This document shows positions 14,983 through 57,240 of a DNA stretch of 64,000 bases, piece by piece. The DNA lies in the NCBI RefSeq assembly GCF_900108025.1, contig NZ_FNUS01000007.1:124001-188000 (forward strand), in the 5' to 3' direction. Both the position numbers and the translations under genes were made by a program. The first letter of the stretch is position 1, and each line of letters starts with the position of its first letter. This stretch comes from Halpernia humi (GTDB lineage Bacteria; Bacteroidota; Bacteroidia; Flavobacteriales; Weeksellaceae). The notes beneath the pieces are model-generated. The model saw only the letters and a list, made by a program, of their open reading frames with translations. It made no database searches and was not told where the DNA came from.

Positions 14983-14990
14983 TATCTTTG
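14983..14990 (+). promoter_or_regulatory. -7 box of the pyr operon
   Basis: TATCTTTG matches TANNTTTG exactly. Transcription should start about 5-8 nt downstream, at or just before the ATG at 14997, which leaves a 115-120 nt leader before pyrB. I could not identify a convincing -33 TTG at the usual distance. Confidence 0.65.
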
Positions 14991-14996
14991 TACCCA

Positions 14997-15062
14997 ATGA
15001 AAATAAAATTTCCATTGAACGATTTTAGAAAAGACGGCTTTGCCGTTTCACAATATTTTTAA
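14997..15062 (+). CDS. possible 21-residue leader peptide of the pyr operon
   Basis: An open frame of 21 codons starts with ATG at 14997, reads MKIKFPLNDFRKDGFAVSQY then F, and stops with TAA at 15060-15062, three nt before the terminator-like stem. The arrangement resembles the pyrL leader peptide of enterobacterial pyrBI operons. The predicted transcription start leaves almost no 5' leader, so translation would be leaderless. Whether it is translated is uncertain; the frame could be fortuitous. Confidence 0.4.
   Translation: MKIKFPLNDFRKDGFAVSQYF
15031..15048 (+). promoter_or_regulatory. leader hairpin (pause or anti-antiterminator) of the pyr operon
   Basis: ACGGC (15034-15038) pairs with GCCGT (15042-15046) across a TTT loop, and flanking bases extend the stem. 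The 3' arm GCCGTT (15042-15047) can instead pair with AACGGC at 15077-15082, inside the terminator stem. So this segment can switch between two structures. Confidence 0.55.
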
Positions 15063-15064
15063 TT

Positions 15065-15095
15065 AAACGAAGTCTTAACGGCTTCGTTTTTTTTT
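15065..15095 (+). terminator. attenuator-type intrinsic terminator before pyrB
   Basis: AAACGAAG (15065-15072) pairs with CTTCGTTT (15082-15089). The stem extends by a G-T and a C-G pair around a TTAAC loop, and nine T residues follow (15087-15095). It lies 16 nt upstream of the pyrB start and downstream of the promoter, so it must be bypassed for the operon to be expressed, which is what an attenuator does. Confidence 0.75.
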
Positions 15096-15111
15096 GTTTA
15101 AAATTTAAAAA

Positions 15112-15999
15112 ATGCACACATTAGAAAACTTAGACAAGGAAAAAATTTTAGCCCTTTTAGCATTGGCGAATGATTTTAAAAATGGTTTAGAAGTAAAACT
15201 TAAATCGAAAATTTTTGCCTCGAATCTGTTTTTTGAAGACAGCACGCGCACGAAAATGAGTTTTGAAATGGCCGAACGAAAACTTGGTTTTGAAGTCATT
15301 CCTTTTGATGCCTCAAAAAGTTCCGTCAATAAAGGTGAAAGTCTTTATGATACGGTGAAAACGCTGGAAAGTATTGGTATAAATTTATTGGTGATTCGGC
15401 ATTCTCAGAATAATTTTTATAATGAATTAAAAAATATTAAAATCCCGATTATCAATGCTGGCGACGGAACGGCAAATCATCCAAGCCAGACCATTTTAGA
15501 CTTAATGACGATTCAGCAGGAATTTGGTGATTTTGAAAATCTAAAAATAGGAATTGTGGGCGATGTAAAACATTCCCGCGTGGCGCATTCACTTTCGGAT
15601 GCCTTAAGAAAAATGGGATCTAAAGTGTTTTTTTCTGGTCCAGAAGAATGGTTTGAAGAAGCCAATTTTATGAATGACACTTATCGGAATTTAGATGAAT
15701 TAGTTCCAGTGGCGGATGTTTTAATTTTCTTAAGAATTCAACACGAAAGACACGGCGAAAAAAAATACAAAGACGAAGATTATTTAAAAAAATATGGTTT
15801 AACAAAAAAACGAGAGCAAAAAATGAAACCAACTTCTATAATTATGCATCCAGCGCCGATCAACAGAAATGTAGAAATAGATTCTGATTTAGTAGAGTGC
15901 AAACGTTCTAGAATTTTTAAACAAATGGAAAACGGCGTTTTTGCGAGAATGGCAATTTTGAGTAATGCTTTGCAATACAGAGCCAAGAGCCAAGATTAA
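15112..15999 (+). CDS. pyrB: aspartate carbamoyltransferase catalytic subunit
   Basis: Joins carbamoyl phosphate and aspartate, the first committed pyrimidine step. The 295-residue protein shows the carbamoyl-phosphate loop FFEDSTRTKMSFE (about 40-52), the partner-subunit SSVNKGES loop, HPSQTILDL, and the C-terminal HPAPINRNVE for aspartate. Family members are usually about 305-310 residues. The last codons, RAKSQD and stop, are written by a heptanucleotide-type repeat (15979-15997), so the natural C-terminus seems to have been replaced. No pyrI regulatory subunit follows. It is separated from carA by a four-helix-bundle gene. Confidence 0.95.
   Translation: MHTLENLDKEKILALLALANDFKNGLEVKLKSKIFASNLFFEDSTRTKMSFEMAERKLGFEVIPFDASKSSVNKGESLYDTVKTLESIGINLLVIRHSQNNFYNELKNIKIPIINAGDGTANHPSQTILDLMTIQQEFGDFENLKIGIVGDVKHSRVAHSLSDALRKMGSKVFFSGPEEWFEEANFMNDTYRNLDELVPVADVLIFLRIQHERHGEKKYKDEDYLKKYGLTKKREQKMKPTSIIMHPAPINRNVEIDSDLVECKRSRIFKQMENGVFARMAILSNALQYRAKSQD
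15979..15997 (+). repeat. left inverted-repeat arm at the pyrB 3' end
   Basis: AGAGCCAAGAGCCAAGATT is, on the other strand, AATC-TTGGCTC-TTGGCTCT, two heptads of TCTTGGC. It matches 16397-16415 in inverse orientation at 18 of 19 positions. It encodes the last PyrB residues, and its final T is the first base of the TAA stop codon. Confidence 0.75.
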
Positions 16000-16022: not shown

Positions 16023-16376
16023 ATGCATAATTTTGAAAATCTGCAATTCTGGAAAAAATCGATTCTTTTAACTAAAAGTGTGTATTTAATCTGTTTAAAA
16101 ATAAATAAAGATGAAAAATTTGGATTAATTTCTCAAATGAAAAGATCTGCAGTTTCAATTCCTTCAAATATTGCAGAAGGTTCCGGACGAAATAGTGATA
16201 AAGAATTTAATCATTTTTTAGCAATTGCTTTAGGTTCTTCATTTGAATTACAAACGCAACTTATTTTAACTAAAGAACTTGAACTTTTAATAGCAGATGA
16301 TGTAGATAATTTAATTTTAGAACTCAAAGAAATTCAAAGAATGATTTACGCCTTCAAAAATAATTTAAATAAATAA
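16023..16376 (+). CDS. four-helix-bundle protein (23S rRNA intervening-sequence protein family)
   Basis: A 117-residue protein of the S23/IVP four-helix-bundle family. The signature RSAVSIPSNIAEGSGR (about 41-56) and the following FNHFLAIALGSSFELQTQL are textbook. Relatives are encoded in intervening sequences of 23S rRNA genes, next to diversity-generating retroelements, or alone. Function is generally unknown. Here it lies between pyrB and carA, where the operon usually has nothing, and is flanked by inverted heptanucleotide arrays (15979-15997 and 16397-16426). Base composition is like its neighbours. It reads as an inserted cassette that keeps the operon orientation. Confidence 0.9.
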   Translation: MHNFENLQFWKKSILLTKSVYLICLKINKDEKFGLISQMKRSAVSIPSNIAEGSGRNSDKEFNHFLAIALGSSFELQTQLILTKELELLIADDVDNLILELKEIQRMIYAFKNNLNK

Positions 16377-16396: not shown

Positions 16397-16426
16397 AATC
16401 TTGACTCTTGGCTCTTGCATCTTGAC
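16397..16426 (+). repeat. right heptanucleotide array before carA
   Basis: Four in-register heptads occupy 16399-16426: TCTTGAC, TCTTGGC, TCTTGCA, TCTTGAC. The first 19 nt (16397-16415) are the inverted partner of the arm at the pyrB end. The array stops 10 nt before the carA start codon. Confidence 0.75.
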
Positions 16427-16435
16427 TCTATAACA

Positions 16436-17524
16436 ATGAAAAAAATATTAATATTAGAATCCGGCGAAGTTTTTCACGGTGCAAGTTTTGGAAATCATGA
16501 AAACACTTTTGGCGAAGTGGTTTTCAACACGGCCATGACAGGTTATCAGGAATTAATTTCAGATCCTTCTTATTGCGACCAATTGGTTTGCATGACGTAT
16601 CCTTTAATTGGAAATTATGGGATTAACCGTGACGATTTTGAAAGTATCCAACCTTCCATTAAAGGATTAATCGTAAAAGAACTTTGCGATTTTCCGTCAA
16701 ATTTTCGTTCGCAAATGACTTTGGATGAATTATTTGAAAAGAAAAACATTTCCGGAATTTCTGGAATTGACACCAGAAGGTTAACCAGAGTTCTAAGAAA
16801 TTCCGGCGTTGTGAAAGGTAAAATCATTAATGCAGATTCAGATATCGACGCAGAAATTCAAGTTTTAAAAAATGAAACTTTCATTACAAATGAAGTCGAA
16901 AAAGTTTCCACTAAAACACCTTATGCCAATCCAGGACGTGGTTTAAAAGTCGTTTTGGTAGATTTTGGTTCTAAACTGGGGATTTTAAGAGAATTAGGAA
17001 AACGCGATTGTGACATCACTGTGGTTTCTCACGATGTTTCAGCAGAAGAAATTTTACTGCTAAACCCAGATGGAATAATGCTTTCCAACGGTCCAGGAAA
17101 TCCTGAAGACAATACTTTAGCCATCGAAATGATTCAAAATTTACTTGGAAAAATTCCAATTTTTGGGATTTGTCTTGGTCATCAATTAATTGCTTTGGCG
17201 TGTGGCGCAAAAACTTTTAAATTAAAATTCGGACATCGCGGCGGAAATCATCCGGTTTTAGATTTAAAACAAAATAAAGTCGCAATTACTTCTCAAAATC
17301 ACGGTTACGCCGTTGATCAAGAAAGTTTAAAAAACACGGATTTAGAGGAAACGCACATAGCATTGAATGATAGAACCAACGAAGGTTTAAAACATAAAAA
17401 TTATCCTTGTTTTTCCGTGCAATACCATCCGGAAGCAAGTCCTGGTCCAGAGGACGCTAATTATTTGTTTGATGAATTTATCACTTTAATGGAAGATTTT
17501 AAATCTAAAAAATTATTAAAATAA
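16436..17524 (+). CDS. carA: carbamoyl phosphate synthase small subunit
   Basis: Glutaminase subunit that feeds ammonia to CarB, making carbamoyl phosphate for both PyrB and the ArgF' enzyme encoded upstream. The protein has 362 residues. The CarA-specific N-terminal domain begins [18 protein letters not shown]. The class I amidotransferase domain has its nucleophile in GICLGHQ (about 253) and the His/Glu pair in [12 protein letters not shown] start at 16436 because the upstream in-frame ATG at 16415 is inside the repeat array and would add only seven repeat-encoded residues. carB follows after a 2-nt gap. Confidence 0.95.
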
Positions 17525-17526
17525 AA

Positions 17527-20500
17527 ATGGCAAAAAGAACAGACATAAAAACAATTTTAGTAATAGGAAGCGGCCCAATCATCATCGGTCAAGCCGCAGA
17601 ATTTGATTACGCAGGAACGCAGGCTTGTTTGGCTTTGCGAGAAGAAGGTTACAGCGTAATTTTAATCAATTCAAATCCGGCAACCATAATGACGGATGTG
17701 GAAATTGCCGACAAAGTTTACATCGAACCAATTTCTTTGGAATTTGTCAGTCGCATAATTCGCAAAGAACGTCCAGATGCACTTTTGCCAACTCTTGGCG
17801 GACAAACCGGTTTAAATATGGCGGTAGAATTGCAAAATTCTGGTATTTTAGAAGAATGTAAAGTTGAGATTTTAGGAACAAAATTATCAGCCATAAATAA
17901 AGCCGAAGACCGCGATTTATTTAGGAATTTAATGAAAGAATTGAACGAACCAGTTCCAGATTCTGAAATCGTAAATAATGTAGAGCAAGCCATAGAATTT
18001 GCTAATAAAATTGGTTTTCCTTTGATTGTTCGTCCTGCTTTTACGATGGGCGGAACTGGTGGCGGAATCGCTAATAATTTAGAAGAATTAAAAGAAATTA
18101 CGAGTTTTGGTTTAAAATATAGCCCGGTTCGTCAGTGTTTAATTGAAAGATCAATCGCAGGTTACAAGGAAATTGAATACGAAGTAATGCGCGATAAAAA
18201 CGACAACGCCATCGTGGTTTGTAATATGGAAAACATCGATCCAGTCGGCGTTCATACGGGCGATTCTATCGTGGTTGCGCCTTCACAAACCTTGTCTGAT
18301 AGAGAATATCAAATGCTGCGAAATTGTTCTTTAAAAATTATTCGCGCTTTGGGAATTGAAGGTGGTTGCAATGTTCAATTGGCTTTAGATCCCCATTCTT
18401 TTAAATATTTTATTATTGAAGTGAATCCAAGAGTTTCGCGTTCATCGGCTTTAGCAAGTAAAGCGACAGGTTATCCAATTGCGAAAATTGCTGCGAAAAT
18501 TGCAGTGGGTTTGACTTTAGATGAAATTATGAATCCAGTTACCGGAACTTCTTACGCATGTTTTGAACCGGCTTTAGATTATGTCGTAACAAAATTCCCG
18601 CGTTTTCCTTTTGATAAATTTGAAACTGCTGATAGAAAATTATCAACTCAAATGAAAGCAACTGGCGAAGTAATGGCCATCGGTCGAAATTTCGAAGAAT
18701 CTTTACAAAAAGCCATTCGTTCTTTGGAAACTGGATTAAGACATTTAGGTTTAAAAACCAAAGTGGCCGAAGCAATGTCGGATGAGGAAATTGAAAGAAG
18801 AATTAAAGTTTGTGATGATGAAAGATTATTCATTATTTGCGATGCTTTGAGAAAAGGTTACGATTGGGAAACCATCGTAGAATGGAGCAAAATTGACAAA
18901 TTCTTTATCTGGAAATTAAAAAAACTAATAGATTTTGAAAAAGAAATTTCAGCCCATAAATTAGATTTAAAAACATTAGAAAAAGCCAAAAAACTCGGTT
19001 TTTCTGACATGAATATCGCGCATCTTTGGAACATTTCACAACGCGAAGTTTTTGATTTTAGAAAAGAAAACGACTTGATGCCCGTTTACAAAATGGTCGA
19101 TACTTGTGCGGCAGAATTTAAAAGTGAAACGCCCTATTTCTACGGAACTTACGAAGAAGAAAACGAAAGTGTACCTTCAAATCGGGAAAAAATTATCGTT
19201 CTCGGTTCTGGCCCAATTCGCATCGGTCAAGGTGTAGAGTTTGATTACGCCACGGTTCATGCGGTTTGGGCGATCAAAGAATTGGGTTACGAATCCATTA
19301 TTATCAACAATAATCCGGAAACGGTTTCTACAGATTTTTCCATTTCCGACAAACTTTATTTTGAACCTTTAACGGAAGAAGATGTCATGAACATCATCGA
19401 ACTGGAAAAACCAAAAGGCGTTTTTGTTCAGTTTGGTGGACAAACTGCAATCAATTTAGCAGATAAATTAGCAGCGCACGGCGTTCAGATTTTGGGAACT
19501 TCTTTGGAAGATTTAGACCGCGCCGAAAATAGAAATAAATTTGAAGCCGCACTTCAAGAAATGGGAATTCCGCAACCTTTGGGAAAAACCTGTTTCACGA
19601 AAGAAGATGCTTTAATTATAGCAAATGAAATCGGCTTTCCGGTTTTGGTTCGTCCGAGTTACGTTTTAGGCGGAAGAGCGATGGAAATTGTTTATGATGC
19701 CAAAGAACTCGATTATTATATGAATAACGCGGTGAAAGAAAATTCTGAACATCCTATTTTAATTGATCGTTATTTAACCGGAAAAGAAGTTGAAGTTGAT
19801 GCCATTTCTGATGGTGAAACGGTCATTATTCCGGGAATTATGGAACATATCGAAAGAGCAGGCGTTCATTCCGGTGATTCAATCGCGGTTTATCCGCCAC
19901 AAAATATTAGCGAAAAAAACATTGCAACTTTGGTAGATTACACCGAAAGATTAGCAAAAGGATTGAATATAATTGGTTTAATGAACATTCAATACGTCAT
20001 TTCTGAAGACGAAGTTTACGTTATCGAAGTCAATCCACGTTCCAGTAGAACCGTTCCTTTTTTATCTAAAATCACTGAAATCCCAATGGCAAATTTAGCA
20101 ACCAAAGCCATTTTAGGACAAAAATTAAAAGATTTAGGTTACAAAACCGGTTTAGCGCCAGTTAAAAATGGGGTTTTTGTTAAAGTTCCTGTTTTTTCTT
20201 TTTCTAAATTAACAAGAGTTGATATTTCCCTCGGACCTGAGATGAAATCAACCGGCGAAGTGATGGGCAAAGATTCCACTTTAGAAAAAGCGCTTTATAA
20301 AGGTTTAATCGGATCTGGTAGAAAAGTGCCTTTAAATGGTGCAATTTTATTCACAGTGGCAGATCAACATAAACCAGAAGCCTGCGAATTAGCAAGAAGA
20401 TTTCAGGAAATTGGCTTTAGAATTTGGGCAACTGAAGGAACCGCCAATTATTTTGAAGAACACGGAGTTAGTGCAAAAATCGGTTATAAAATTGAAGAAA

Positions 20501-20712
20501 ATCCGGAAATTAACTTGATTGATTTAATTCAAAACGGAAAAGTACAATACATTGTAAATACCATGACCAAAGGAAAACAATCCGAAAGAGACGGTTTCCA
20601 AATCCGAAGAACTTCGGTTGAAAACGGCGTTCCGTGTTTGACTTCGATGGACACTGTTGAAGCGATTTTAAAAGTCATTGAAAGTATGAGTTTTAAAATG
20701 GAAGTGATGTAA
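17527..20712 (+). CDS. carB: carbamoyl phosphate synthase large subunit
   Basis: Makes carbamoyl phosphate from bicarbonate, ATP and ammonia passed from CarA. It has 1061 residues. The two homologous ATP-grasp halves begin [15 protein letters not shown] (about 8-22) and [15 protein letters not shown] (about 556-570), with the paired [10 protein letters not shown] and [12 protein letters not shown] motifs. The C-terminal allosteric MGS-like domain starts near residue 930 ([15 protein letters not shown]) and ends with an [18 protein letters not shown] stretch, so UMP or ornithine control is possible. It is the last gene of the operon and ends 33 nt before a strong terminator. Confidence 0.97.
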
Positions 20713-30963: not shown

Positions 30964-31422
30964 TTAATTTTTTAAAAAGCCATCAATTTGCTTCACTAAA
31001 GTCAAATCTTTAGAATTCTTATAATTTTCTTCAATAAATTTCTTGTCCTCTACAATATTTTTGTTGTAGCCTAAAAAACTTGGCATTTCAACTTGGCAAG
31101 TGTAGCGCATAAACCGAATCTCTAGATTATTGGGTGCTTTTGCAACAGCAGACTCCAAATATTTTTTACCTTTCTTAAAATAAGACATTTTCGAGAAAGG
31201 ATTGATGGCATGTTTTGCCATAAAAAAGTTGCCCACACCAATATAAGATTCATAAACTGGAGATTTCGTTTCTTGGAAATCGTGTTTTGCTTTTGCCAAA
31301 AATTGCTTTGTAGCGAGTTCTGATTTCTCTGATTTTAGCATGAGATCTGTGTACTCTGTCCTACTATTTTGCGCTTCCATGAGGCCTATTACAAATATTA
31401 GTAAAAAACATATTTTTTTCAT
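30964..31422 (-). CDS. exported helical protein of unknown function in the carotenoid operon
   Basis: A 152-residue protein with a signal peptide (MKKICFLLIFVIGLMEAQ) and a mature part rich in alpha helix with TPR-like spacing (YFKKGKKYLESAVAKAPNNLEIRFMRY). The start overlaps the crtB stop by one base (TAATG), and crtZ follows by 4 nt, so it is built into the operon. It is not a known carotenoid enzyme. An accessory or scaffold role at the periplasmic face of the membrane is possible but not shown. Confidence 0.75.
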   Translation of the reverse strand: MKKICFLLIFVIGLMEAQNSRTEYTDLMLKSEKSELATKQFLAKAKHDFQETKSPVYESYIGVGNFFMAKHAINPFSKMSYFKKGKKYLESAVAKAPNNLEIRFMRYTCQVEMPSFLGYNKNIVEDKKFIEENYKNSKDLTLVKQIDGFLKN

Positions 31423-32264
31423 TAGAGCAAATTTAAGTTTTTTGTAACTAAAAGTTCACACATTAAGTACGCTTTTCTAGCATTACTCACACGTATTCTT
31501 TTGGTTAACAAAACTTTGGGCTCTGTATTTTTTATTTTTCTGAATAAATTCATATAATAGCGATAAGCCATAAAAACTGCTAATTTACTAGAAATTGGCA
31601 GCATTTTTATTCCAATTAAGGCTTGTTCGAAATCAATTGCGATATCTTTTTCTATGGTTTTTTTATCTTCTAGCGTAAAATTATTAAAATCTACACCTGG
31701 GAAATACATTCTATTTAAAACTAAAAAATCGGCTTGAATATCGCGTAAAAAATTAATTTTTTGAAAAGCGGCGCCCAAACTTTTAGCAAAAGGTTCTAGT
31801 TTTTTAAACTCATTTTTGTCTCCATTCACAAATACTGTAAGACACATAAGGCCGACTACTTCTGCGCTGCCATAAATGTAAGCATCATATTCTGCTCGAT
31901 CTTGGTAATTAATTTCACCCAAATCTTTGTACATAGAATCTATAAAAGCGTCTATTAAACTTTGATCTATTTTGTATTTTTTTACGGTTTTAGTGAAGGA
32001 GTGCAAAATAGGATTTAGAGAAATCCCTTTATTCATCGCGTCTTCATACTGATTCATAAAATCGTCCATCAATTCACGTTTCGGAAAATCGTGAAAAGTA
32101 TCTACAATTTCATCTGCAAATCTCACGAAACCATAGATATTGTAAATTGCCTCGCGAATGTCTTCCGGAAACAGCAAAATTGCCCGCGAAAATGAACTGC
32201 TGTAAGATTTCGTAACTAATTTGCTACAATTAAAACTCACTTGGTCGTGTAAATTCTGTGTCAT
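31422..32264 (-). CDS. crtB: phytoene synthase
   Basis: Head-to-head condensation of two geranylgeranyl diphosphates to phytoene. The 280-residue trans-prenyltransferase has the first Asp-rich motif in VRFADEIVDTFHD (about 47-59) and the second in LGAAFQKINFLRDIQAD (about 162-178). YSSSFSRAILLFP at the N-terminus is also typical. It lies 153 nt downstream of crtI in the same orientation and overlaps the next gene by one base. Confidence 0.94.
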   Translation of the reverse strand: MTQNLHDQVSFNCSKLVTKSYSSSFSRAILLFPEDIREAIYNIYGFVRFADEIVDTFHDFPKRELMDDFMNQYEDAMNKGISLNPILHSFTKTVKKYKIDQSLIDAFIDSMYKDLGEINYQDRAEYDAYIYGSAEVVGLMCLTVFVNGDKNEFKKLEPFAKSLGAAFQKINFLRDIQADFLVLNRMYFPGVDFNNFTLEDKKTIEKDIAIDFEQALIGIKMLPISSKLAVFMAYRYYMNLFRKIKNTEPKVLLTKRIRVSNARKAYLMCELLVTKNLNLL

Positions 32265-57124: not shown

Positions 57125-57240
57125 TTCTGCCTTTTCTGAAAATCCGTCCCGTCTTCCACTCTATCTTTTTTGGCGCATCTCCACCTCTGGCGGATCGCGC
57201 CAAAAAAGGATGCCGTTTCAGCCGCGGCTATTGAAGAAAG
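57125..57240 (-). repeat. dispersed imperfect palindrome, family D, downstream of porX
   Basis: On the minus strand it begins GCCGCGGCTGAAACGG and ends AGATAGAGTGGAAGACGGG. TTTTTTGGCGC (57166-57176) and GCGCCAAAAAA (57197-57207) form a perfect 11-bp stem. Short open frames through here (57027-57293 and 57170-57373) are not credible genes. Confidence 0.65.

Follow-up and report, generated by a model that had tools for sequence, protein, structure and literature searches.

A probable translation-coupled, UTP-responsive attenuator upstream of pyrB in Halpernia humi and its relatives

We conclude, with a probability of roughly 0.7, that the leader upstream of pyrB in the 64-kb stretch of Halpernia humi DNA analysed here (the window) attenuates transcription of pyrB, carA, and carB in a manner coupled to translation and responsive to UTP through pausing of RNA polymerase. 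Judged from sequence, ribosome coupling at this leader is well supported, and UTP would probably be sensed through pausing in a U-rich tract just before the terminator. Ribosome-polymerase coupling controls pyrBI in enteric bacteria, and attenuation of the pyrBI kind appears to be the best reading of the leader. Among the leader features that we compared, the strongest signal in these sequences is a reading frame kept open from its ATG to the terminator.

A sequence-only reading had taken this DNA for an attenuator-like leader that encodes a leader peptide. That description is supported: its promoter box, 21-codon frame, hairpin (15034–15046), and terminator (15065–15095) are each present, in a layout comparable with that of E. 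coli pyrL. On the forward strand, the −7 box TATCTTTG (14983–14990), assigned as a promoter by its agreement with the TAnnTTTG consensus, is followed after 6 nt by the ATG of a frame of 21 codons plus TAA (14997–15062, stop at 15060–15062). Within and beyond this frame lie hairpin 1, a candidate pause hairpin (15032–15048, core 15034–15046; −7.3 kcal/mol) whose place is kept among relatives while its arms vary; the U-rich tract ATATTTTTAATT (15053–15064), by base composition a candidate UTP-sensitive pause region; and an intrinsic terminator, the putative attenuator (−11.0 kcal/mol), formed by a stem at 15065–15089 and a T run to 15095. Folding of the 120-nt leader is modestly stronger than that of shuffles (z −2.1). 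When both strands of the window were scanned for a TAnnTTTG box (104 boxes) with an ATG within 4–9 nt and a terminator 40–120 nt on, two candidates were found, and only in the pyrB leader was the frame open to the terminator. Elsewhere in the window, at 57141–57233 on the minus strand, lies a match to Flavo-1 RNA (RF01705), a family whose matches, according to one study (PMC9723704), give no real clue to its function.

Directly downstream of the terminator are pyrB and carAB. The pyrB gene (15112–15999, +) encodes aspartate carbamoyltransferase (NCBIfam NF002032 and TIGR00670, both over cut-off), and carA (16415–17524, +; TIGR01368 over cut-off, start codon uncertain) and carB (17527–20712, +; TIGR01369 over cut-off) follow. 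Between pyrB and carA is a four-helix-bundle gene (16023–16376; TIGR02436); a similar gene sits between carA and carB in some relatives, and none is labelled in others. With gene labelling by short motifs, both carA and carB were marked downstream of pyrB in 27 of 33 named Bacteroidota loci, the remaining six of which end early or contain genes that the motifs leave unlabelled. Among named relatives, Halpernia frigidisoli is the closest by PyrB (76%).

The leader is a regular companion of pyrB in the host's flavobacterial family. PyrB was found at E≤1e-40 in 113 of 148 family genomes, at 114 listed places; one genome (G012) has two copies, on contigs C11 and C42, each with its own leader, which may be real or reflect a mixed assembly. 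The 35 genomes without a match at this threshold may be unable to make pyrimidines de novo, or may rely on a different enzyme. Upstream DNA was examined at 110 places (G106, G131, G134, and G143 were left out), and at 102 of them a box, an ATG 5–7 nt on, a frame, and an intrinsic terminator precede pyrB, with the outermost G-C pair of the terminator 69–87 nt past the ATG. These 102 places comprise 86 distinct leaders from 25 genera, and the eight exceptions all belong to one genus, g16. A covariance model (R1) trained on 48 of the family's leaders matches 104 of the 148 genomes, a number equal to that of PyrB-bearing genomes minus the nine of genus g16; because of the training set, these family matches arise partly by construction. 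Of 296 genomes sampled across the phylum, seven matched, all from the host's family, and none of the 289 others did, under strict filters that may lose weak matches. Applied to 47 sources, R1 matched ahead of pyrB in the window and in each of the 33 named Bacteroidota loci, and gave no match in four Bacilli loci and nine other loci of the class. Weak matches on the minus strand at window 31361–31435 (E 0.33) and in locus L013 (E 0.72) were taken as chance, as were four extra matches in genus g23 (G045, G061, G073, and G083), of which the three inspected (G045, G061, and G083) proved to be the end of another gene and its terminator. Known Rfam families gave only weak matches to the leader (E 0.4–0.8), far under their gathering scores. 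We found no paper on this leader in the literature searched, and the supplement of PMC9723704, which holds 64 structured 5′ regions, could contain related pyr leaders.

The reading frame gives the clearest indication that a ribosome takes part. Read from the ATG, 85 of the 86 distinct leaders meet no stop codon until they are at most 10 nt from the outermost G-C pair of the terminator or have passed it, as compared with 30 of 86 for frame +2 and 26% of shuffled leader bodies; frame +1, open to the terminator in two of 86, makes a poor control, since ATGA includes a stop codon. Because the leaders are related, the count was also made with one leader per genus, where frame 0 was open in 24 of 25 and frame +2 in five of 25. 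The typical frame has 21–26 codons and ends at the terminator base, and the commonest position of the stop codon is directly against the stem (44 leaders at distance 0). The exception, L130, has its stop 16 nt before the terminator base and counts against the coupled reading. The view of the peptide as a conserved product was rejected, since differences are spread evenly over the three codon positions (621/678/612) and the excess of synonymous changes is weak (of 87 single changes 34 are synonymous, a share of 0.39 where 0.24 is expected). These figures therefore suggest that an open path for the ribosome has been kept more than the peptide itself, and, peptide constraint being weak, it is the openness of the frame that argues for translation.

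The frame would be entered at or very near the 5′ end of the transcript. Positions 1, 2, and 5–8 of the box are invariant in the family alignment, in which leaders were selected for this box, and the gap from box to ATG, for which 4–9 nt was allowed, measures 6 nt in 79 of the 86 distinct leaders, 5 nt in six, and 7 nt in one. Start mapping in Flavobacterium psychrophilum places TAnnTTTG at −12 to −5, and 5.5% of mRNAs in that organism are leaderless (PMC9723704). By this spacing, transcription in the window would start near 14995 (14994–14997), 0–2 nt upstream of the ATG; the constant 6-nt gap agrees with a leaderless or nearly leaderless start. The start codon may itself be paired, in a possible 5′ stem (14995–15017) that joins CAATG (14995–14999) to CATTG (15013–15017). 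Runs of at least six pairs at this stem occur in 46% of leaders and 5.7% of shuffles, the window leader having five; the stem, with its CATTG/CATTAG segment, is lineage-limited, and whole genera are without it.

The terminator is conserved among the leaders. Comparison of related leaders for compensatory changes, which the sequence-only reading had suggested as a check, came out differently for the two hairpins: in the terminator, five of nine consensus pairs carry at least one two-sided compensatory change in the alignment, whereas hairpin 1 is missing from the consensus fold, and the leaders align poorly there. The switch that had been proposed was a competition between these two stems, in which GCCGTT (15042–15047) of hairpin 1 would pair with AACGGC (15077–15082) of the terminator. 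The two segments are indeed complementary in the window, and at −7.6 kcal/mol their pairing is about as stable as hairpin 1, but the terminator is stronger than this cross-pair, and a complement of at least 6 nt is found in only three of 80 leaders, two of them from the host's own genus. Competing stems are thus not supported as the switch, and we regard them as a most improbable one. Nor is there another antiterminator among the family leaders, in which the longest complement to the 5′ arm of the terminator is 5 nt, below that of shuffles. Since no upstream segment pairs with this arm over more than 5 nt, a ribosome that covers the arm would explain the switch better. When window positions 15043–15072 were held unpaired, as they might be by a ribosome at the leader stop, the terminator was gone from the predicted fold, as it must be, because its 5′ arm is then covered.

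Hairpin 1 is kept in place rather than in sequence. In 80 of 86 leaders the best stem ends 18–29 nt short of the terminator base, yet its arms occur in 38 different combinations (one of these being an empty result common to two leaders), among them pairs as unlike as CAACTCA/TGAGTTG, GAAGGGC/GTCCTTC, ATCAGC/GCTGAT, and GGGCG/CGCCC. It scores 12.9, against 8.7 in shuffles; leader by leader against their own shuffles, p≤0.05 is reached in only 27 of 86 and p≤0.2 in 71 of 86, and 49% of leaders reach 0.05 when the minimum free energy of the region is used. This modest showing of single leaders, like the absence of hairpin 1 from the consensus fold, weighs against the coupled reading. Between hairpin 1 and the terminator, U makes up 69% of positions −15 to −6 relative to the terminator base in the 86 leaders, as compared with 36% at 13 terminator-like sites in the window, which presumably include that of the pyrB leader itself.

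From these elements one could envision the following course of events. RNA polymerase would start at or beside the leader AUG, and a ribosome would load on this leaderless or nearly leaderless start. Once past hairpin 1, the polymerase would pause within the U-rich tract that adjoins the terminator. Scarce UTP would make this pause long, and the ribosome, having reached the end of the frame, would cover the 5′ arm of the terminator so that the polymerase reads into pyrB; when UTP is plentiful, the polymerase would outrun the ribosome, the terminator would form, and transcription would stop.

The same anatomy fits a coupled attenuator with a signal other than UTP, such as general translation or growth state, conveyed through initiation at the leaderless AUG, ppGpp, or another nucleotide. 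In about half of the leaders the start codon falls within a possible 5′ stem, which suggests control at initiation and speaks for a signal of this kind. Against it, the U-rich tract just before the terminator, the place of the leader before pyrimidine genes, and a second copy before carB in G051 all favor a pyrimidine signal, and we consider a non-UTP signal unlikely. Against the UTP-responsive reading, no terminator was seen in the 265 nt upstream of pyrE in the host's own genome.

The reading of a UTP-responsive, coupled attenuator owes much to pyrBI of enterobacteria, with which layout alone was compared. Attenuation at pyrBI in E. coli is described in PMC4824070 and PMC5021804, and a title by Donahue and Turnbough on the subject is cited in PMC9291695; in E. 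coli the ribosome suppresses almost completely a terminator that lies a few nt past a stop codon (PMC4824070), and for pyrBI attenuation the boundary is described as sharp (cited in PMC4824070). With the same scripts, E. coli pyrL showed a hairpin, the run TTTTTCTT, and a 44-codon frame that crosses the terminator and ends 46 nt past its base. Like pyrL, the family leader has a frame that reaches or crosses an intrinsic terminator before pyrB, and a hairpin followed by a U run. Features of the pyrBI type found here are the site between a consensus promoter and pyrB, a frame that brings the ribosome to the terminator, and a terminator without an antiterminator. The two differ in that the frame of the family leader usually has 21–26 codons and ends at the terminator base, rather than running 44 codons through it; that it begins 0–2 nt from the predicted start site, behind a promoter of the Bacteroidota TAnnTTTG type; and that, in the window, carAB are in the operon and no pyrI lies beside pyrB. 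A further difference counts against the parallel: the U tract adjoins the terminator in the family, whereas in E. coli pyrL only 20% of positions −15 to −6 are U and the run of U sits farther upstream.

A leader peptide ahead of biosynthetic genes also brings to mind amino-acid-sensing attenuators of the trp/his type; for a car/pyrB operon, arginine or aspartate would be the candidates. Such leaders, with a peptide and a terminator in a flavobacterium, have been reported in F. psychrophilum ahead of operons for amino acids (PMC9723704), and isoleucine occurs in all 75 distinct leader peptides and phenylalanine in 99%, isoleucine twice or more in the last eight codons of 52% of them. This abundance of Ile and Phe may only reflect the U-rich tract. 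Unlike known leader-peptide attenuators of this class, the family leader has no conserved run of sensor codons (the residue most often doubled is Asn, in 36%, followed by Asp in 24%, Phe in 13%, Ile in 7%, and Arg in 1%) and no antiterminator, and arginine is present in only 55% of the 75 distinct peptides, all of which makes amino-acid sensing highly doubtful.

PyrR regulates pyr leaders in Bacillus. If PyrR or another RNA-binding regulator stabilised hairpin 1 or the terminator here, the leader would be a protein-dependent attenuator, and it resembles PyrR attenuators (RF00515) in placing a terminator before pyr genes. The resemblance ends there: no PyrR match at E≤1e-15 was found in the 148 family genomes, and RF00515 gave no match in the window or in any of five family or MAG loci tested, although the same Rfam search finds PyrR sites in five of five Bacilli loci. 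The absence of RF00515 is weak evidence when taken alone, because the model also missed seven of seven loci of the class from PyrR-bearing genomes. The host's own genome has two weak PyrR matches, the better at 27.6 bits, far below the cut-off of 138. Hairpin 1 offers a protein little conserved primary sequence to read across genera, and such regulation would leave the open frame unexplained. PyrR, which the sequence-only reading had kept in play, can accordingly be set aside given the lack of a PyrR match in the 148 genomes and of an RF00515 match, and protein-dependent attenuation in general appears very unlikely.

The family stands apart from its class in this respect. Of 119 genomes drawn from the whole class, 107 have PyrR over its cut-off (the 119 include two family members, both without it), and in many of these genomes it lies close to pyrB. 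The leader had been called a Bacteroidetes counterpart of the enterobacterial system; this is too wide, the leader having been found in the host's family and in a few MAG loci with related PyrB under other labels, while most of the class sample carries PyrR. With the window sequence as query, family PyrB is 56–62% identical to the Bacilli PyrB retrieved and 37–46% identical to those from elsewhere in the class. A 40-row tree places family and Bacilli sequences together, apart from other class sequences (support 98/97 and 100/90), with the caveats that the Bacilli rows were picked by similarity, that E. coli forms a long branch, and that the program warned of long branches meeting. A likely history, as far as these sequences tell, is that pyrR-pyrB was replaced by a foreign pyrB. 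We would put at about even the chance that the PyrR control found across the class and missing from this family gave way, together with the arrival of a Bacillus-like PyrB, to a UTP-sensing attenuator of independent origin, one built on tight transcription-translation coupling and a leaderless start codon in a group without Shine-Dalgarno initiation. In that case the leader would serve as a natural reporter of coupling in Bacteroidota.

If the UTP-responsive, coupled attenuator is real, its conservation in 25 genera would suggest that transcription and translation are tightly coupled in a family of Bacteroidota, and on leaderless or nearly leaderless starts. The leader would also provide a simple assay for coupling, and it would show how a family with no PyrR match controls its pyrimidine synthesis.

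Two variants of the usual leader speak for the coupled reading. In genus g16 (L188–L195), an unrelated terminator precedes pyrB, and in six of the seven leaders that have it, a frame of 64–83 codons crosses it, starting at a TTG that was chosen after looking; in the seventh, it is another frame that stays open, and in the eighth leader of the genus, L189, no terminator was seen. In G051, a further leader, divergent but built alike (match at G051:C1:643182-643283, within locus L234, G051:C1:640500-644000) lies before a detached carB, with a box, an ATG, and a 31-codon frame that runs through the terminator. The peptide of the pyrB leader in this genome is nearly that of the Riemerella locus L013, which marks G051 as Riemerella-like.
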